A DNA stretch of 64,000 bases from Aldrovandia affinis. Lineage: Eukaryota; Chordata; Actinopteri; Notacanthiformes; Halosauridae. How positions within the stretch are numbered: position 1 is the first letter of the stretch; each line of letters starts with the position of its first letter. Shown here in pieces: positions 7,597 through 37,209 of the stretch. The notes below the pieces were generated by a model. It saw only the letters and a list, made by a program, of their open reading frames with translations. It did no database searches and was not told the DNA's origin. A program made the position numbers and the translations under genes. Location of the stretch: NCBI GenBank assembly GCA_029706075.1, contig JAINUG010000048.1:4966374-5030373 (forward strand), written 5' to 3'.

Positions 7597-8690
7597 CTAT
7601 GATTTCAGGATTAAAAACACCTGTTTTTGTGAGGATTATTAGTTGGGTAGTGAATTTAAAGGAAAAAACTCAAATTAAGGAAGGCTTTCTCAGGAAGACA
7701 GGGATATGGTTATGAAAACTACATCATGCCACCCAGATCCTGCCTAGAAAAGGCTGCCCCTCCAAACTCAGTGACCAAACAAGGTGAGACTTGTAAGGGA
7801 AGTCACTGTGAGACCTACTCTACAAGAGCTACAGAGTTCAATGGCTGAGAATGGACATTTTAAAATTTTAAGCATTTAGCAGACGCTCTTATCCAGAGCG
7901 ACTTACAAGATGTGCATTAATACATGGTAAGAACAATCATTGTTTGCGCGTTGGAGTAATAGTGCATCAGTCAGCAATATCAAGAGCACTGCATAATAGT
8001 GGCCTGTATGGCAGTGGCAAGAAAAAAGCCATTACTTAAAACAAAACATCTCAAAGCCCACTTGGAGTTTGCTAGATAGTGTGTGAGTGATCTAGCTAAG
8101 ATGTGGGAAAAGGCTTTGTGGTCAGATGAGACTAAAATATAGCTTTTTGGCCAAAATGCAAAGCGTTAAGTATGGCGCAAACCTAATGCTGCCTATGCCC
8201 CACCTAACACCATCCCTACAGTGAAGCAGATAGTGGTGGCAGTATCATGCTATGGGGATGCTACTCTTCAGCAGGGACTGGGAAACATGCCAGAATAGAA
8301 GGAATAATGGATGGAGCAAAGTACAGGCAGATGCTGCAAGAAAACCTATTTCAGTCTCCCAAAAAACTGAAACTGAGTCAAAATTTCACCTTTCAGCAGG
8401 ACAACGATCTAAAGCACAGGATCAAAGCTCAAGAGTGGCTCAAGAATAAAAAGGTGAATGTCCTTGAGTGGCCCAGTCAAAGTCCTGGCCTGAACCCCAT
8501 TGAGAATCTGTCCATACGCAATGTCCAAGCAACTTGAGAGAGCTGGAGCATTTCTGCCAGAAAGAATGGGTGAGAATCACCTCCAACCAGTGTGCAAAGT
8601 TTGTACCAACTTTGCACAAAAAGACATGAAGTTGTTATTGCAGCGAAAGGTGCTTCCACCAAATATCAAAGCTGACATAACTAATTTCTT
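7597..8690 (+). mobile_element. Tc1-like DNA transposon, degenerate, with a nested L2 tail
   Basis: The + strand carries a broken Tc1-type transposase. 7600-7850 matches the helix-turn-helix half and 8095-8510 the catalytic half: an LWSDET-like start, GGSIMLWGCYSS, FQQDND in place of the second catalytic Asp motif, and WPSQSPGLNPIENL near the third acidic residue. Stops and frame breaks disable it. Compared with the related minus-strand copy at 10.1-11.8 kb, the reading is interrupted at 7851-7954 by an L2 tail. Terminal inverted repeats are missing, so both ends are truncated. Confidence 0.88.
7853..7954 (-). mobile_element. L2-type LINE tail nested in the Tc1 element
   Basis: The minus strand shows ACAAGATG, the intact stem-loop CGCTCTGGATAAGAGCG and CTGCTAAATG. 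It splits the transposase reading between the GCTGAGAATGG and GTGCATCAGTCAGC blocks, which are nearly contiguous in the sister Tc1 copy. The LINE tail therefore landed after the Tc1 copy did. Confidence 0.8.
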
Positions 8691-12612: not shown

Positions 12613-12703
12613 GTTTGTACCAACTTTGCACAAAAAGACATGAAGTTGTTATTGCAGCGAAAGGTGCTTCCACCAAATATCAAAGCTGACATAACTAATT
12701 TCT
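12613..12703 (+). mobile_element. 91-bp Tc1 fragment identical to 8599-8689
   Basis: This block, from GTTTGTACCAACTTTGCAC to ACATAACTAATTTCT, is identical base for base to the end of the 7.6-8.7 kb Tc1 copy and has unrelated flanks on both sides. It is the C-terminal edge and 3' UTR of a Tc1 copy, without the terminal repeat. Confidence 0.9.
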
Positions 12704-31540: not shown

Positions 31541-31621
31541 GGGGTGTCAAACTCATTCCATCGAGGGCCGAGTGTGTGCAGGTTTCTGTTGTAACCAATG
31601 CATTACACCAGAAGACCAATA
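31541..31621. mobile_element. Left end of a hAT MITE, interrupted by the LTR element
   Basis: CAGGGGTGTCAAACTCATTC resembles the hAT MITE ends at 11215 and 49214, and the 8 bases before it (CCTTAGAG) equal the target duplication of the 11215 copy. The LTR element begins 81 bp in. No right end was found beyond 37203. Confidence 0.55.
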
Positions 31622-32067
31622 TGTAGCAAGGTGGCAGGGGTGGCCACCATGCCAGGTGGTGAGTGGATGAAAGACCAACCAAAAAATTAACTTCCGATAG
31701 GCCAATGGCCGATTTATTACCTTTTTACAAAACAATTCAAACAAAACAGGAAGATACAGCAGTAACATCCAAAAACTATGCAATAGAGGGAAGGAGCAAC
31801 AAAAACCAGCACTTCTGCCTCCATGCCCCAAAAACTCTCTCATCAAGCATGGCAGGCTGTGCTTTTATAATGGCCTAATGAAGGCAATGGCTCACAGCTG
31901 AGTTGATTGCTCATTAGCCTCAGGTGAGCCTGCCTGTAAGTGAGGCCACTGCTGTCCAAGGCCCTGTAGTCTTCTTCAGGCTGTGGGAGGGAACAGAAAT
32001 ACCTGACAGCAGCCAAAAGGGAGGTGCAGCCCTCTCTACTCCTCCCTCTACCTCTCTCAGTGTCACA
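31622..32067 (-). repeat. 3' LTR (446 bp) of the LTR element
   Basis: It matches the right LTR along its length, including TGGCAGGCTGTGCTTTTATA and the CTCAGCTGAGTTGATTGC region. It keeps a 28-bp stretch (CCAGCACTTCTGCC...) that the right LTR has lost between CAAAAA repeats. Confidence 0.92.
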
Positions 32068-32342
32068 TACCTTCCCCCTCAGCTCCAACTAAGGGGAGGA
32101 GGTGGAAATCTCCAAACACCAGGAGAGGAACGCCAGGGCTTTAGGAGGCTCTGCCCCCAGGGTTGAAGATAAGCCATGCCTGTCGCACCAGCGAACTGAT
32201 ACCGGAGGCATAAGGCAGCTTTGTGCCCCCGGAAAAGCTGGCAACGGCAGGCGATGAGGGGCCCCCAGGGAGGCCAGCAGCAGCACGCGACCAGCGACCC
32301 TCTGGGAGGCTGCAAGCAGCAGGCAAGGAGGGCGACAGCTGG

Positions 32343-32540
32343 GCGCGATGGGCCCTCAGGAAGGCCGGCGACAGCTGGGCGCGATGGGCCCTCAGGAAGG
32401 CAGGCGACAGCTGGGCGCGATGTGCCCTCAGGAAGGTCGGCGACAGATGGGCGCGATGGGCCCTCAGGAAGGCCGGCGACAGCTGGGCGCGATGGGCCCT
32501 CAGGAAGGCCGGCGACAGCTGGGCGCGATGGGCCCTCAGG
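32343..32540 (-). repeat. 36-bp coding minisatellite, part 1
   Basis: About 5.5 tandem 36-bp units (CTCAGGAAGGCCGGCGACAG + CTGGGCGCGATGGGCC), each encoding the 12-residue unit GPSRPAVAGLPE on the minus strand. The array is open in that frame and belongs to the LTR element's protein region. It is interrupted at 32540/32541 by the LINE insertion and resumes at 33950. Confidence 0.93.
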
Positions 32541-33949
32541 TCCAGTACTTTTGGGACAAGGATCCGTGGCGCACCTGCGGCCCAGTTGTAAAAGAGGTGA
32601 GGAAGAATAAATCACCTGTGGTTGTGCTGAGGGTTAGGTTTCACTATGGTCAATGAGATCAGCTGTGTTTTTCCCTTCAACACCAGTGCGCTAACGGCGT
32701 AGCGAATTGGCAATCTCTGATAAGAGTTATGAGACGCTCCGTCTGAAGCACTTCTCTCAGGAGGAAACTGACATACTTGCCCAGGAGGCACTTTTTATGA
32801 CACCTCAGACAAGCCATCAAGACCGCCTGCGAACCAACGGAGGAAGAAGACGGCACGGCGCTCGTTAGTGCAGTTTATGTATTTTCGTTTAAGCCGCAGG
32901 CACTAAAATGCGTTTCAATTATATAACCTTTCGAGTTTACAAGGCTATGTAAGTGGCGTGATTCATATTCACTACTTCACTTGTGATGCTCCACAGCCAA
33001 CAAGCCTCTCCTCTCCTGCACGCTCTGTGCCTGTCCAGCATTCTTGCGATCGGCACAGGCAACTCTGTTGCACCACATTTACATTACATTTTACATTTCT
33101 CGTGCTTCTCGAGCCATATTGCAGCGATCTCCCGGACCTGCCGTTTCTCCCTCCACAACATCCGGAGGATCAGACCGTTCCTCACCCAAGAGGCCACTCA
33201 ACTCCTGGTCCAGGCCCTGGTGATCTCACGTCTGGACTACTGCAATTCCTTGCTGGCAGGCCTTCCGGCCTGTGCCATCAAGCCACTGCAACTAGTCCAG
33301 AACGCTGCTGCTCGCCTGGTGTTCAACCAGCCGAAGTTCACCCACGTCACCCCTCTACTCTCCTCTCTGCATTGGCTCCCCATCGCAGCACGCATCAGAT
33401 TCAAGTCACTGGTGCTTGCTTTTCAAGCGGCCAGAGGTACTGCTCCCCCATACCTCCAGTCACTCATCACGCCCTACACCCCGTCCAGACCCCTCCGCTC
33501 CGCCTCCGCTGGCAGACTGACTGCCCCATCCCTCCGGGCGCCTGGCAGCCGCTCCTCACGGTCTCGCCTCTTCTCTGTCCTGGTCCTCGTTGGTGAACGA
33601 CCTCCCGCACCGGTCAGGACTGCGGAATCACTTCCAATCTTCCGCAAGAGACTCAAAACCCACCTCTTCAGACTCCACTACCACTGAACACTGTCCATCT
33701 AGTCAATCTGTCGTCACCACTGTTTACTTGTTCTAAAAAAAATAAAATAAAAAAAATAAATAAAAAACCCACTAACCTTTTCTTTCCCAATGTTACAGGT
33801 ATGATACGCAGACGCCTGCAATGATGTCTTTTGCTGTTTTACTGCACTGATCTTGTACGCTAACTTTGATTGTTCTCACCTTGTATTAATGCACATCTTG
33901 TAAGTCGCTCTGGATAAGAGCGTCTGCTAAATGCTTAAAATGTAAAATG
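32541..33949 (+). mobile_element. L2 (UnaL2-like) LINE, 5'-truncated, inserted in the minisatellite
   Basis: 33112-33687 is open and encodes the C-terminal part of an L2-clade reverse transcriptase: SRLDYCNSLLAGLP, LQLVQNAAARLV, LHWLPIAARIRFKSL and FRKRLKTHLFRLHYH before the stop at 33685-33687. The 3' UTR ends with the stem-loop CGCTCTGGATAAGAGCG (33906-33922) and CTGCTAAATG. The minisatellite resumes immediately after. The sequence at 32541-33110 belongs to the same insertion but is unassigned; it contains ACATTTACATTACATTTTAC at 33076, which may be a second tail. The polymerase core is missing, so the copy is dead. Confidence 0.85.
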
Positions 33950-34365
33950 GAAGGCCGGCGACAGCTGGGCGCGATGGGCCCTCAGGAAGGCCGGCGACAG
34001 CGGGGCGCGATGAAGGGGCATTCAGGGAGGCCTGCAACGACAGGCAAGGAGGGGCCCTCAGGGAGGCCATGACGACAGGCAAGGAGGGGCCCTCAGGGAG
34101 GCCTGCGACGTCAGGCAAGGGGGGCCCTCAGCGAGGCCTGCGACGGCAGGCAAGGGGGGCCCTCAGGGAGGCCTGCAACAGCAGGCAAGGAGGGGCCCTC
34201 AGGGAGGCCTGCGACAGCTGGCGGCAATGGGCCCTCGGCGAGGCTGGCAACGGCAGGCAAGGAGGGGCCCTAAGGGAGGCCTTCGACGGCAGGGCACGAT
34301 GGGCCCTCAGTGAGGCCAGCGACGGAAGGCGGTGATGGGCCCTCAGCGAGGCCGGCGACTGAGGT
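33950..34365 (-). repeat. 36-bp coding minisatellite, part 2 (diverged)
   Basis: About 11 diverged units of the same 36-bp repeat, for example GGCCCTCAGGGAGGCCTGCG, some with small insertions or deletions. On the minus strand they read as variants of (E)GPSxPAVAGLP. Divergence increases towards the gag-like frame. Confidence 0.9.
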
Positions 34366-34389
34366 CTGTGGGGGTGCATGGCCCGGTCT

Positions 34390-35060
34390 TAGGGCCTTCC
34401 TCTGCTCCTCAGTCAGTGAGAGGAGAAGCCAGTGGGCAGTGTCATTAATTGGTGCTGGACAGTGGTGCCAATGATGACCGTCGCTTGTGCAGCTTCCACA
34501 CCAATTGCCATCCTGCATTGGGCACACAGACTAGCGATGATCTGGGTCCCCACACCACTCACACCAGAGAAAAATTCTCATAAGCTCCTTCCCAGGGGCC
34601 CCTGACCCAGGGTTCCACAGGTCGGTGGGGCAACTCCCACACACCCCAGAGCCTGCAGTACTGGACCACGGGTTAGGCGATAACCAGGCAGTGGTGGAGC
34701 CAGGGAAGGGGTTGCATGATTGCTTCTCTCTGGGTTTCCTCGCTTTTCCCCATGAAAGCCAGGAGTGTCTCCACCACACACTCGCTCAGGTAACTGACCC
34801 CCTCCAGGTCCAGCCAGATGTACACCTCCGGGTCCCTCATCCAACGAAGGAGGTCCTCCACCTCTGGGCTGGTCCAGGTCACAGCACGCCAGGGCTCATG
34901 TCCACCAGGGCTCGAGGCTGGCTCCAACTGGACCCCAGTCGCTATACAGCAGTTCTCCCTGCATCTTGGGGGAGCAGGCTTCCAGGTCCTGGGGTTCCTG
35001 GGGTCCCCTAGGCATAGGGACTGCCTGTCTCTTTGCCTTGCCATGTTTTTTCCTTGGCAT
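34390..35060 (-). pseudogene. gag-like frame of the LTR element with two CCHC zinc knuckles, frameshifted
   Basis: On the minus strand an ATG at 35060 opens MPRKKHGKAKRQ, a basic start. After frame shifts it continues through SPEVEDLLRWMRDPEVYIWL and LSECVVETLLAFMGK, a helical capsid-like stretch. Around 34480-34560 it carries two exact CX2CX4HX4C zinc knuckles (CEWCGDPDHRSLVC and CGSCTSDGHHWHHC). A Leu/Glu-rich linker then joins it to the minisatellite-encoded tail. Zinc knuckles of this spacing bind RNA in gag nucleocapsid proteins. At least two frameshifts disrupt the reading. Family assignment beyond gag-like is not possible by eye. Confidence 0.75.
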
Positions 35061-35222
35061 TTTTTATTTTATTTTATTTTTTAGGGGGGGGGAAGAGAAG
35101 AAGTGTGGGGGAAAAAATGTCCCAAAAATATTTTTTATTTATTTTTTATAGTAATTAATGAAGGAAAATCTTAATCCACTCAACCATCAGGGACAATTAA
35201 ATTGCCCGCATTCTCCACCATA

Positions 35223-37203
35223 TGTAGCAAGGTGGCAGGGGTGGGCACCATGCCAGGTGGTGAGTGGATGAAAGACCAACCAAAAAATTAAGTTCCGATT
35301 TAGATTTAGTACCTTTTTACAGTGGTGGGCCGTCAGGGCCTGCAAGGCCTTCTCTGCTGGCCTAAAAAATATCTGAATCACAGACTGATGTTAATTATAT
35401 TTTTTCCATGAATACTTATTAAATAATTCCAAATGGTCTGTCCGCTTTCTTTCATAGCTTTTCCCCTGGTTGCGGTGCTTCCAGACGTGTATTTTCATAT
35501 TAAAGCATTTAACCAATCACATTTCAGCCATCATTTGTTGCCAGGGTCAAATAAATCTGCCTGTAGGCCTTCACAATCAGTTCTGCAGGCACTGTAGCAT
35601 AAAATAAGTGTTGATCAAACTGTTGCTTCAACCAATCAGATTTTGAGTTGGGGACACTAAGGCCTTCTAGAAGGCCTAGGTAACGTTAGCGTATTCACAC
35701 CCTTTGATTGGATAGTCAGAGAGTGTCTGACTATGATGTCATGTGATTGGTTAAATGCTTTAATATGAAAATACACGTCTGGATGCAGCGCAACCAGGGG
35801 AACAGCTATGAAAGGAAGCGGACAGACCATTTGGAATTATTTAATAAGTATTCATGGACAAAATATAATTAACATCAGTCTGTGATTCAGACATTTGAGC
35901 GGACATTTTCAGCCCTAAAGCGAATTAAAATATATGCCAGAAATACGACAGGGCAGGCTCGACTTTCAGCATTAGCTTCGATGGCGATAGAAAATGACTT
36001 CTTGATGGAACTGAAACACACGGATAATCTGTACGACAGAGTAATTGAACTCTTTTTGAGGAAAGAAAGGAGGATGGATTTTGTGTACAAATAATAAGGA
36101 TTTTTGGTGAGTAAAATGTTGCTATTTTCCTAAATAATATTGCAATTTTATGAGGTTATTATTGATGCTTTGTTATGTGTGTCGCAGCTGTAGCACCCCG
36201 GATTTGTTTCTTCAGTAAAGGCATTTATTCTGGATACACGAGTTATCAATCTGCGATGCAACGGCAACGGGTGTTTGTTCGGTTTGTTTTTGCACTTTGT
36301 TTATTTATCTTTCTTCAGTCATGTTTCATTCTCGTTCTGTTCCCGTCTGTCATTGTTCCTGTTCGGGTTCCTCTCCTTGTCTTGTCATGCACTTCGCAAA
36401 TTCTATGTTTCGGTTTTTAGGGAGGAGGAGGAACGCATAAAGAAATCTGCGTGCGAATAAAGCGGAACGTGAGAAGCGTACAGAGAGAGAGAATGACAGC
36501 GATAGTTAGAAGCGTGAGATAATTAGTGATTAGTAGTGTTAGTAACTTAATCTAAATCCCTAATGTTAGTAGATTAGTTGGTTAGTACTATATACATCTA
36601 ACTAATATATACAAAGTGTAATTAGAAAGTAAGAAGGAAGTAAAACGAGATTAGAAACGAAGACGGAAAAACCGAAACATAGAATTTCCCGAAGTGCATG
36701 ACAGAACGAGAATGAAACATGACTGAAGAAAGATAAATAAACAAAGTGCAAAAACAAACCGAACAGACACTCAAAACATAACAATAAGATGGCTTTTATA
36801 GCCATAAAATAGTTATTGAGGGGTGGATTGATTCAGACAGAGCACTACTGAAGGCCTAGGTGTGAAATGCACGGCCCGCCACTGCCTTTTTACAAAACAA
36901 TTCAAACAAAACAGGACGATAAAGCAGTAAAATCCCAAAACTATGCAATAGAGGGAAACAGCAACAAAAACTCTCTCATCAGGCATGGCAGGCTGTGCTT
37001 TTATAATGGCCTAACGAAGGCAACGGCTCACAGCTGAGTTGATTGCTCATTAGCCTCGGGTGAGCCTGCCTGTAAGTGAGGCCGCTGCTGTCCAAGGCCC
37101 TGTAGTCCTCTCCAGGCTGTGGGAGAGAACAGAAATACCTGACAGCAGCCAAAAGGGAAGTGCAGCCCTCTCTACTCCTCCCTCCGCCTCTCCCAGTGTC
37201 ACA
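35223..37203 (-). repeat. 5' LTR of the LTR element, split by a hAT insertion
   Basis: LTR sequence occupies 35223-35319 and 36893-37203 (about 410 bp in total). The gap is the hAT element with its duplicated CCTTTTTA. Confidence 0.92.
35320..36884 (+). mobile_element. hAT transposon (internally rearranged) inside the LTR
   Basis: Ends CAGTGGTGGGCCGTCAGGGC and GCACGGCCCGCCACTG are inverted repeats, flanked by a perfect 8-bp duplication CCTTTTTA (35312-35319, 36885-36892). 35882-36094 is open and encodes the hAT C-terminal dimerisation region (ERTFSALKRIKIYARN, RLSALASMAIEND). The upstream catalytic part is gone. Two large inverted repeats replace it: 35372-35522 against 35741-35891 (about 151 bp), and 36271-36418 against 36667-36769. 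Confidence 0.92.
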
Positions 37204-37209
37204 CAATAC

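Follow-up and report, generated by a model that had tools for sequence, protein, structure and literature searches.

The window, a stretch of 64,000 nucleotides from the fish Aldrovandia affinis (contig JAINUG010000048.1 of assembly GCA_029706075.1, positions 4,966,374 to 5,030,373), contains at 31617..37208 a dead, decayed member of a high-copy, non-autonomous long terminal repeat (LTR) retrotransposon family. The family is of a known kind, the non-autonomous, gag-only LTR retrotransposon, in a new form. The preferred reading, to which a probability of about 0.7 is given, is that of a pol-less family with a coding array, copied by the enzymes of a Gmr1-like Ty3 element, whose own protein serves as a nucleocapsid-like chaperone. 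This reading is carried by the anatomy of the family, an array that is in frame and under coding constraint, cis sites shared with the Gmr1-like element, and the lack of pol in the copies read.

The window copy lies on the minus strand and runs from 37203 to 31622; left and right refer to lower and higher window coordinates. Its own features are the following.

31617..31621, no strand: target-site duplication CAATA, left, read from the sequence
31622..32067, minus strand: left LTR, 3' in the sense of the element, 446 bp, TG..CA
32068..32086, minus strand: polypurine tract GGAGCTGAGGGGGAAGGTA, with GGAGCTGAGGGGGAGGGTA as its counterpart in copy L020
32141..32230, minus strand: remnant of the conserved C-terminal tail (..GGTKLPYASGISSLVRQAWLIFNPGGRAS, then a stop)
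32231..32540, minus strand: 36-bp array, second part, 8 recognised units
33950..34378, minus strand: first part of the 36-bp array, with 10 recognised units coding for repeats of the GPSRPAVAGLPE type, by now interrupted by stops and shifts of frame
34459..34500, minus strand: zinc knuckle 2, CGSCTSDGHHWHHC
34522..34563, minus strand: zinc knuckle 1, CEWCGDPDHR*SVC, with an in-frame stop at 34531-34533
34676..35068, minus strand: open piece of the gag-like N-domain (..LRWMRDPEVYIWLDLEGVSYLSECVVETLLAFMGKSEETQREAIMQPLPWLHHC..), in a frame that differs from that of the knuckles
35203..35220, minus strand: primer-binding site (PBS), 18 nt complementary to tRNA-Ala(AGC)
35223..35319, minus strand: 5' LTR piece at lower coordinates
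36885..37203, minus strand: 5' LTR piece at higher coordinates
37204..37208, no strand: target-site duplication CAATA, right, read from the sequence

An earlier note on this DNA had called the boundaries firm, and they are borne out to the base: a pair of LTRs with TG/CA ends, the 5-bp CAATA duplication, a PBS and a purine tract, which together mark an LTR retrotransposon. In element sense the left LTR begins with TGTGACACTG and ends with TTGCTACA. The right (5') LTR occupies 35223-37203 overall, a later hAT-type insertion included, and its two pieces have 6 mismatches to the left LTR over 97 aligned bases and 18 over 319, gaps excluded. The PBS, TGGTGGAGAATGCGGGCA, begins 2 nt inward of the LTR and complements the 3' end plus CCA of tRNA-Ala(AGC). 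The 3' end of the tRNA-Ala gene is found at 14 places in the same genome, with ARAGORN calling tRNA-Ala at both of the loci examined. A 26-mer made up of the LTR end and the PBS has 1226 genome occurrences at up to 3 mismatches, as against none for the reversed control, and chance is therefore ruled out.

Once the later insertions are removed, the window element is about 2.6 kb long. What lies between its PBS and purine tract is a single degenerate gag-like frame, the two knuckles and some 18 of the 36-bp units, rather than the 16 counted previously, because 10 and 8 units are recognised on the two sides of a 1409-bp insertion. The layout of a gag-like frame followed by an array is thus present, but the frame is broken: it changes between N-domain and knuckles, a stop lies in knuckle 1, and stops and frame changes occur in the array. 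For both knuckles to be exact (CX2CX4HX4C), as had been claimed, the stop in knuckle 1 has to be taken for a residue. The scanned open pieces of the window element gave no match to a Pfam pol domain, and the element is therefore not itself a Gmr1-like Ty3 element. Nor does it have the env that would mark an endogenous retrovirus: no env model was matched, and no long frame was seen beyond the gag-like frame, the array and the inserted elements.

The architecture of gag-like frame, knuckles and array without pol is a family trait in this genome (1.22 Gb searched). With the LTR as query, 40 matches were scored among 2496 candidates, and 20 loci of 10 kb, covering 21 of the 39 other LTR places, were read. 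Internal parts were found by blastn in seven of these (L009, L011, L016, L020, L024, L026 and L028), their order where present being PBS, gag, array, tail. L011 and L026 have array and tail only, in L028 a distance of 3.4 kb separates the internal part from the matched LTR, and the remaining 13 loci have the LTR match alone. Target duplications were detected by script in 11 loci, 10 of 5 bp and one of 4 bp. The divergence of LTR pairs is 5.1% in L020, 4.8% in L009, 4.6% in L016 and 1.7% in L024 (174 bp). The solo LTRs of L015 and L017 have identical flanks and duplication, and are probably one insertion represented twice, as haplotypes or through segmental duplication.

A 195-aa query from L009, ending just before the first repeat, has at least 151 gag-like matches (150 scored among 514 candidates). 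The longest frame among the matches listed is 620 aa with three internal stops, so that none of these is of polyprotein length. Twelve further copies were read, all picked from hits without stops in the query region. Across the copies read there are stop-free frames of about 270–390 aa, and the gag-like frame with its knuckles is open in several, without a Pfam gag domain match. The interiors of the window copy, L009, L016, L020 and L024, a small fraction of all copies, contain no pol as far as they were read, and a motif scan of the 20 LTR loci recognised none within elements having the window-type LTR. L028 was considered as a pol-bearing copy and rejected, its Ty3 pol belonging to an older element that is cut by the LTR insertion. 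The view that pol is missing where the repeat sits, and that other copies retain a gag with an open-frame array, therefore holds in the copies read; neither a pol in most copies nor an array that is always out of frame elsewhere, either of which was to have counted against it, was seen there.

The family protein consists of an N-terminal domain, two CCHC knuckles, a short linker, the 12-residue proline-rich repeats and a conserved C-terminal tail that ends a little way upstream of the purine tract. The frame of the first repeat was scored in 17 of 18 copies entered (L043 being unscored), and it agrees with that of the knuckle region in 15 of them, L041 and L042 being out of frame. Four copies are stop-free through the array into the conserved tail: L033, L034 and L044 by script and L043 in the printed frame. 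As anticipated, the array varies in length between copies, from about 2 units in L043 to more than 20 in L035, where they lie in two frames. A subfamily without about 55 aa of the N-domain core, recognised by eye, keeps knuckles, array and tail, which suggests that these matter more than the core does.

The array is coding sequence in the family, and constraint on the frame is apparent. The ratio of non-synonymous to synonymous substitution rates (dN/dS) in the knuckle region is below 1 in all 15 pairs of six copies (0.08–0.83); over 15 copies its mean is 0.39, with 96 of 105 pairs below 1. The linker has a mean of 0.46 (12 copies; 61 of 64 pairs below 1) and the tail one of 0.60 (12 copies, with three rows misaligned by a one-codon indel; 55 of 66 pairs below 1). 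Within the array itself, the third codon positions of the GPSRPAVAGLPE frame are the most variable in all 9 arrays compared (from 8 copies, the window copy supplying two). The excess has a pooled permutation p of 0.008, with single arrays at p 0.002–0.15, and it persists when CpG sites are left out.

These results bear on the proposal that the array is carried along as a neutral passenger, being a GC-rich minisatellite that grew by slippage in a tolerant C-terminal region and owes its open frame solely to 36 being divisible by 3. The spread of unit numbers fits such a passenger, as do the frame-breaking indels and stops of many arrays and the fact that more than one sense frame can remain open across many units. 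Against this, third-position variability comes top in every array, the conserved tail continues the array frame, and a sister family described below has another long module at the same place. Neutrality is therefore considered unlikely. A far less probable proposal is that the array works as RNA, through a packaging, dimerisation or stability signal, and not as protein. The array is GC-rich and lies towards the transcript's 3' end, and of three arrays folded one does slightly better than its shuffles (z -1.6, matched by 3 of 100 shuffles); the remaining two show no such gain (z -0.5 and 0.0), and the variation tracks the codon frame. An RNA function was rejected on these grounds.

The earlier note had asked for a pol-bearing partner that shares the LTRs, and one was found that shares their 3' end, together with the PBS and the purine tract, but not the body of the LTR. 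Among 100 listed PBS places, out of the 1226, there are 11 that have, on the same strand, a Ty3 RNaseH no more than 6 kb downstream (150 RNaseH matches scored among 6266 candidates, 66 of these 150 being entered in the comparison). Ten of the 100 have a gag-like domain within 2.5 kb downstream (44 of 151 gag places compared), and 32 have the purine tract and LTR of the partner within 8 kb downstream, at a median of 4.3 kb (100 of 107 places entered). This last junction has 107 genome occurrences, and its control has none.

The partner gag contains a SCAN domain (E=3e-7, over the cut-off), integrase domains lie upstream of the RNaseH place, and RNaseH lies about 200 bp ahead of the 3' LTR. The domain order comes from one copy (C2403), seen in small pieces, in which only the start of the reverse transcriptase was recognised, by eye, after the integrase. 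A SCAN-bearing gag with integrase upstream of reverse transcriptase and RNaseH is an order that we take to be the mark of a Gmr1-like element. Among frog elements, SCAN has been found in Gmr elements only, according to PMC4131045. In four copies the partner LTR starts with TGTAGCGCCC and ends with TGCTACA. Its purine tract, GGAGCTGAGGGGGAGGGT (L052), is identical to that of L020 over 18 nt. The 16-nt core of the tract was located in 11 family copies, 8 of which have it unaltered; the window copy has one change. The window family and the partner thus have in common the tRNA-Ala PBS, the 3' terminus of the LTR and the 18-nt purine tract; they differ in that the partner encodes a SCAN gag, integrase and RNaseH.

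It is likely, from these shared sites, that the Gmr1-like Ty3 element is the helper of the window family. Another pol-bearing family, unsampled here and having the whole LTR in common with the window family, could fill this role instead, since the known partner has only LTR termini and cis sites in common and scoring covered 150 of 6266 RNaseH and 40 of 2496 LTR candidates. This is quite improbable, as the PBS, U5 end and 18-nt purine tract all point to the Gmr1-like partner and a motif scan of the 20 LTR loci recognised no pol within an element having this LTR, the Ty3 pol of L028 being part of an older element.

Under the preferred reading, tRNA-Ala would prime the element RNA at the PBS common to both elements, and the Gmr1-like enzymes would copy that RNA by way of this site and the purine tract, which is likewise shared, while the partner integrase presumably recognises the LTR 3' end that the two elements have in common. 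The element protein would be a nucleocapsid-like RNA chaperone with knuckles that bind the element's own RNA. The repeat may be a flexible, length-tolerant spacer or a self-association segment that aids entry of the RNA into the helper particle. The protein could alternatively be a complete Gag that makes its own particle, with pol alone being borrowed. Its knuckles are where they would be expected, and stop-free frames of the size given above are available for it. Judged by capsid sizes, the stretch ahead of the knuckles leaves little room for a capsid of two domains, its core is missing in the subfamily, and no capsid domain was matched, so that a complete Gag is very unlikely.

Several observations weigh against the chaperone reading with a Gmr1-like helper. 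The gag-like N-domain has no significant match in Pfam or PDB, and the label Gag therefore rests on knuckles, position and composition; Pfam returned only sub-cut-off matches (STAS, E=0.01; FH1, E=0.0045), and nothing credible came from the PDB sequence search (best E=0.012, CasX). The subfamily without the N-domain core has nevertheless been amplified. Two of the four read-through copies have lost knuckle residues, L043 keeping one exact knuckle and L044 none. The dN/dS is not below 1 in 9 of 105 knuckle, 3 of 64 linker and 11 of 66 tail pairs, and finding copies by protein similarity biases dN downward. The partner LTR body has no blastn match to the window-family LTR (E 0.01), its SCAN gag is dissimilar to the gag-like protein beyond the knuckle, and the FDPGG stretch that both pol-less families have before the purine tract was not found in the partner pieces. 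Shared cis sites are a sign that the elements descend from one ancestor or use one enzyme, and do not in themselves show mobilisation.

The second of these pol-less families was found at L016:5806-9305, where a tRNA-Ala element lies 0.6 kb downstream of a window-family copy. It has a 606-bp LTR match and a PBS of 18/18, and is young as judged by its LTR divergence of 1.3%. Its frame encodes a related N-domain, one knuckle and, by eye, a long coiled coil. The N-domain is 31–37% identical over 42–114 aa to five pieces of the long subfamily (E values from a three-sequence set), and three short-subfamily pieces have no such match. Relatives are numerous (150 scored among 1033 candidates), with frames of up to 876 aa, and the PBS has 0 or 1 mismatch in three copies read. 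No long-period tandem repeat was found in the two sister copies tested (L045 and L046). TTYGACCC, encoding the FDPGG stretch, lies 68–69 nt from the purine tract in the window family (18 in L016) and 79–80 nt from it in the sister family. By eye, one sister match, C2088, has a listed RNaseH place no more than 10 kb away, in opposite orientation.

The two families may tentatively be seen as a lineage of satellite retrotransposons, enzyme-less and with their own RNA-binding packaging protein of a new class unrelated to the helper gag. This class would have a DPxV[YF] N-domain, one or more CCHC knuckles, an exchangeable long module and an FDPGG tail near the purine tract. The module exchanged would be the 12-residue proline-rich array in the window family and the coiled coil in the sister family, and both would compete for the Gmr1-like helper by way of the primer site, purine tract and LTR end that they have in common with it. 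The usual view of pol-less LTR elements is that they are trimmed relatives of the elements that help them. In the present case two abundant families have in common with their likely helper only the sites touched by reverse transcriptase and integrase, and both supply a protein unlike the helper's, one that probably binds RNA and whose middle part can be exchanged. They offer a system for asking how satellite retrotransposon RNA enters the particle of another element, and whether a minisatellite that codes for protein within a mobile element is under selection or only tolerated.

The gag of a TR-GAG element is expected to derive from that of its autonomous partner. The gag-like protein of the window family is not the gag of its likely helper, to which it has no similarity beyond the knuckle. 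The TR-GAG elements of plants, as reported from Chaparro et al. (2015) in PMC5818461, resemble the window family in retaining LTRs while pol is missing, and their gag-type frame has a gag-like counterpart there, open with its knuckles in several copies but without a Pfam gag domain match; unlike them, the window family is animal-hosted and has a coding minisatellite fused to its knuckles. Retand elements also have length-variable tandem repeats near the 3' LTR. According to PMC11963269 these are family-specific, come after pol, in the space that separates the coding region from the 3' LTR, and are called unknown in origin and eventual function, whereas the window-family array prolongs the gag-like frame and leads into a conserved tail. 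TRIMs such as Helenus are likewise non-autonomous, and according to PMC10886601 those of animals are believed to depend for their movement on Gypsy elements whose PBS is similar. Helenus LTRs contain tRNA-like sequence, and the vertebrate primers named there are tRNA-His, -Leu or -Lys. The window family differs from the short TRIMs, which are defined by having no coding capacity, in encoding a protein, and from vertebrate Helenus in its tRNA-Ala primer. No relatives were found in viral contigs. A search outside which Repbase and most subscription journals lay found no published description of the window element; absence from print is not claimed.

Same-orientation gag-like domains recur every 1–1.8 kb at C2333:958889-964388, C2466:5411250-5414677 and C1:3290451-3292871. 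These look like tandem multimers of the element, of a kind reported for Cassandra in PMC7215508. Gag-like matches are clustered on both strands in C1090, C1258 and C1762, perhaps as inverted multimers. A tandem repeat of about 970 bp, 97–99% identical between units, occupies L020:42-2124, in the same locus as a complete copy of the element.

Two later insertions interrupt the window copy.

32541..33949, plus strand: insertion inside the array, with a long interspersed nuclear element (LINE) from about 33102 and its UnaL2 3' end at 33888-33940
35320..36884, plus strand: hAT-type insertion in the 5' LTR, with terminal inverted repeats CAGTGGTGGGCCG/CGGCCCGCCACTG and an 8-bp target-site duplication

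The insertion in the array is 1409 bp long and terminates in the UnaL2 LINE 3' end; its first 560 bp (32541-33101) lie outside the LINE matches elsewhere (L014, L027), which start at about 33102. LINEs of the UnaL2 kind suggest the genome of a teleost-like fish. The hAT-type insertion, of 1565 bp, splits the 5' LTR and is flanked by the duplication CCTTTTTA. It has inverted-repeat arms of 156 bp and 70 bp and retains a C-terminal transposase remnant, with a weak Dimer_Tnp_hAT match (E=0.0053) below the cut-off. A copy about 97% identical to it is present in L010. Elsewhere in the window, 8599-8689 and 12613-12703 are identical 91-bp stretches 4 kb apart. In L053 and L054 (C1372), tRNA-Ile, -Phe and -Ala genes are repeated with a period of about 1.48 kb.

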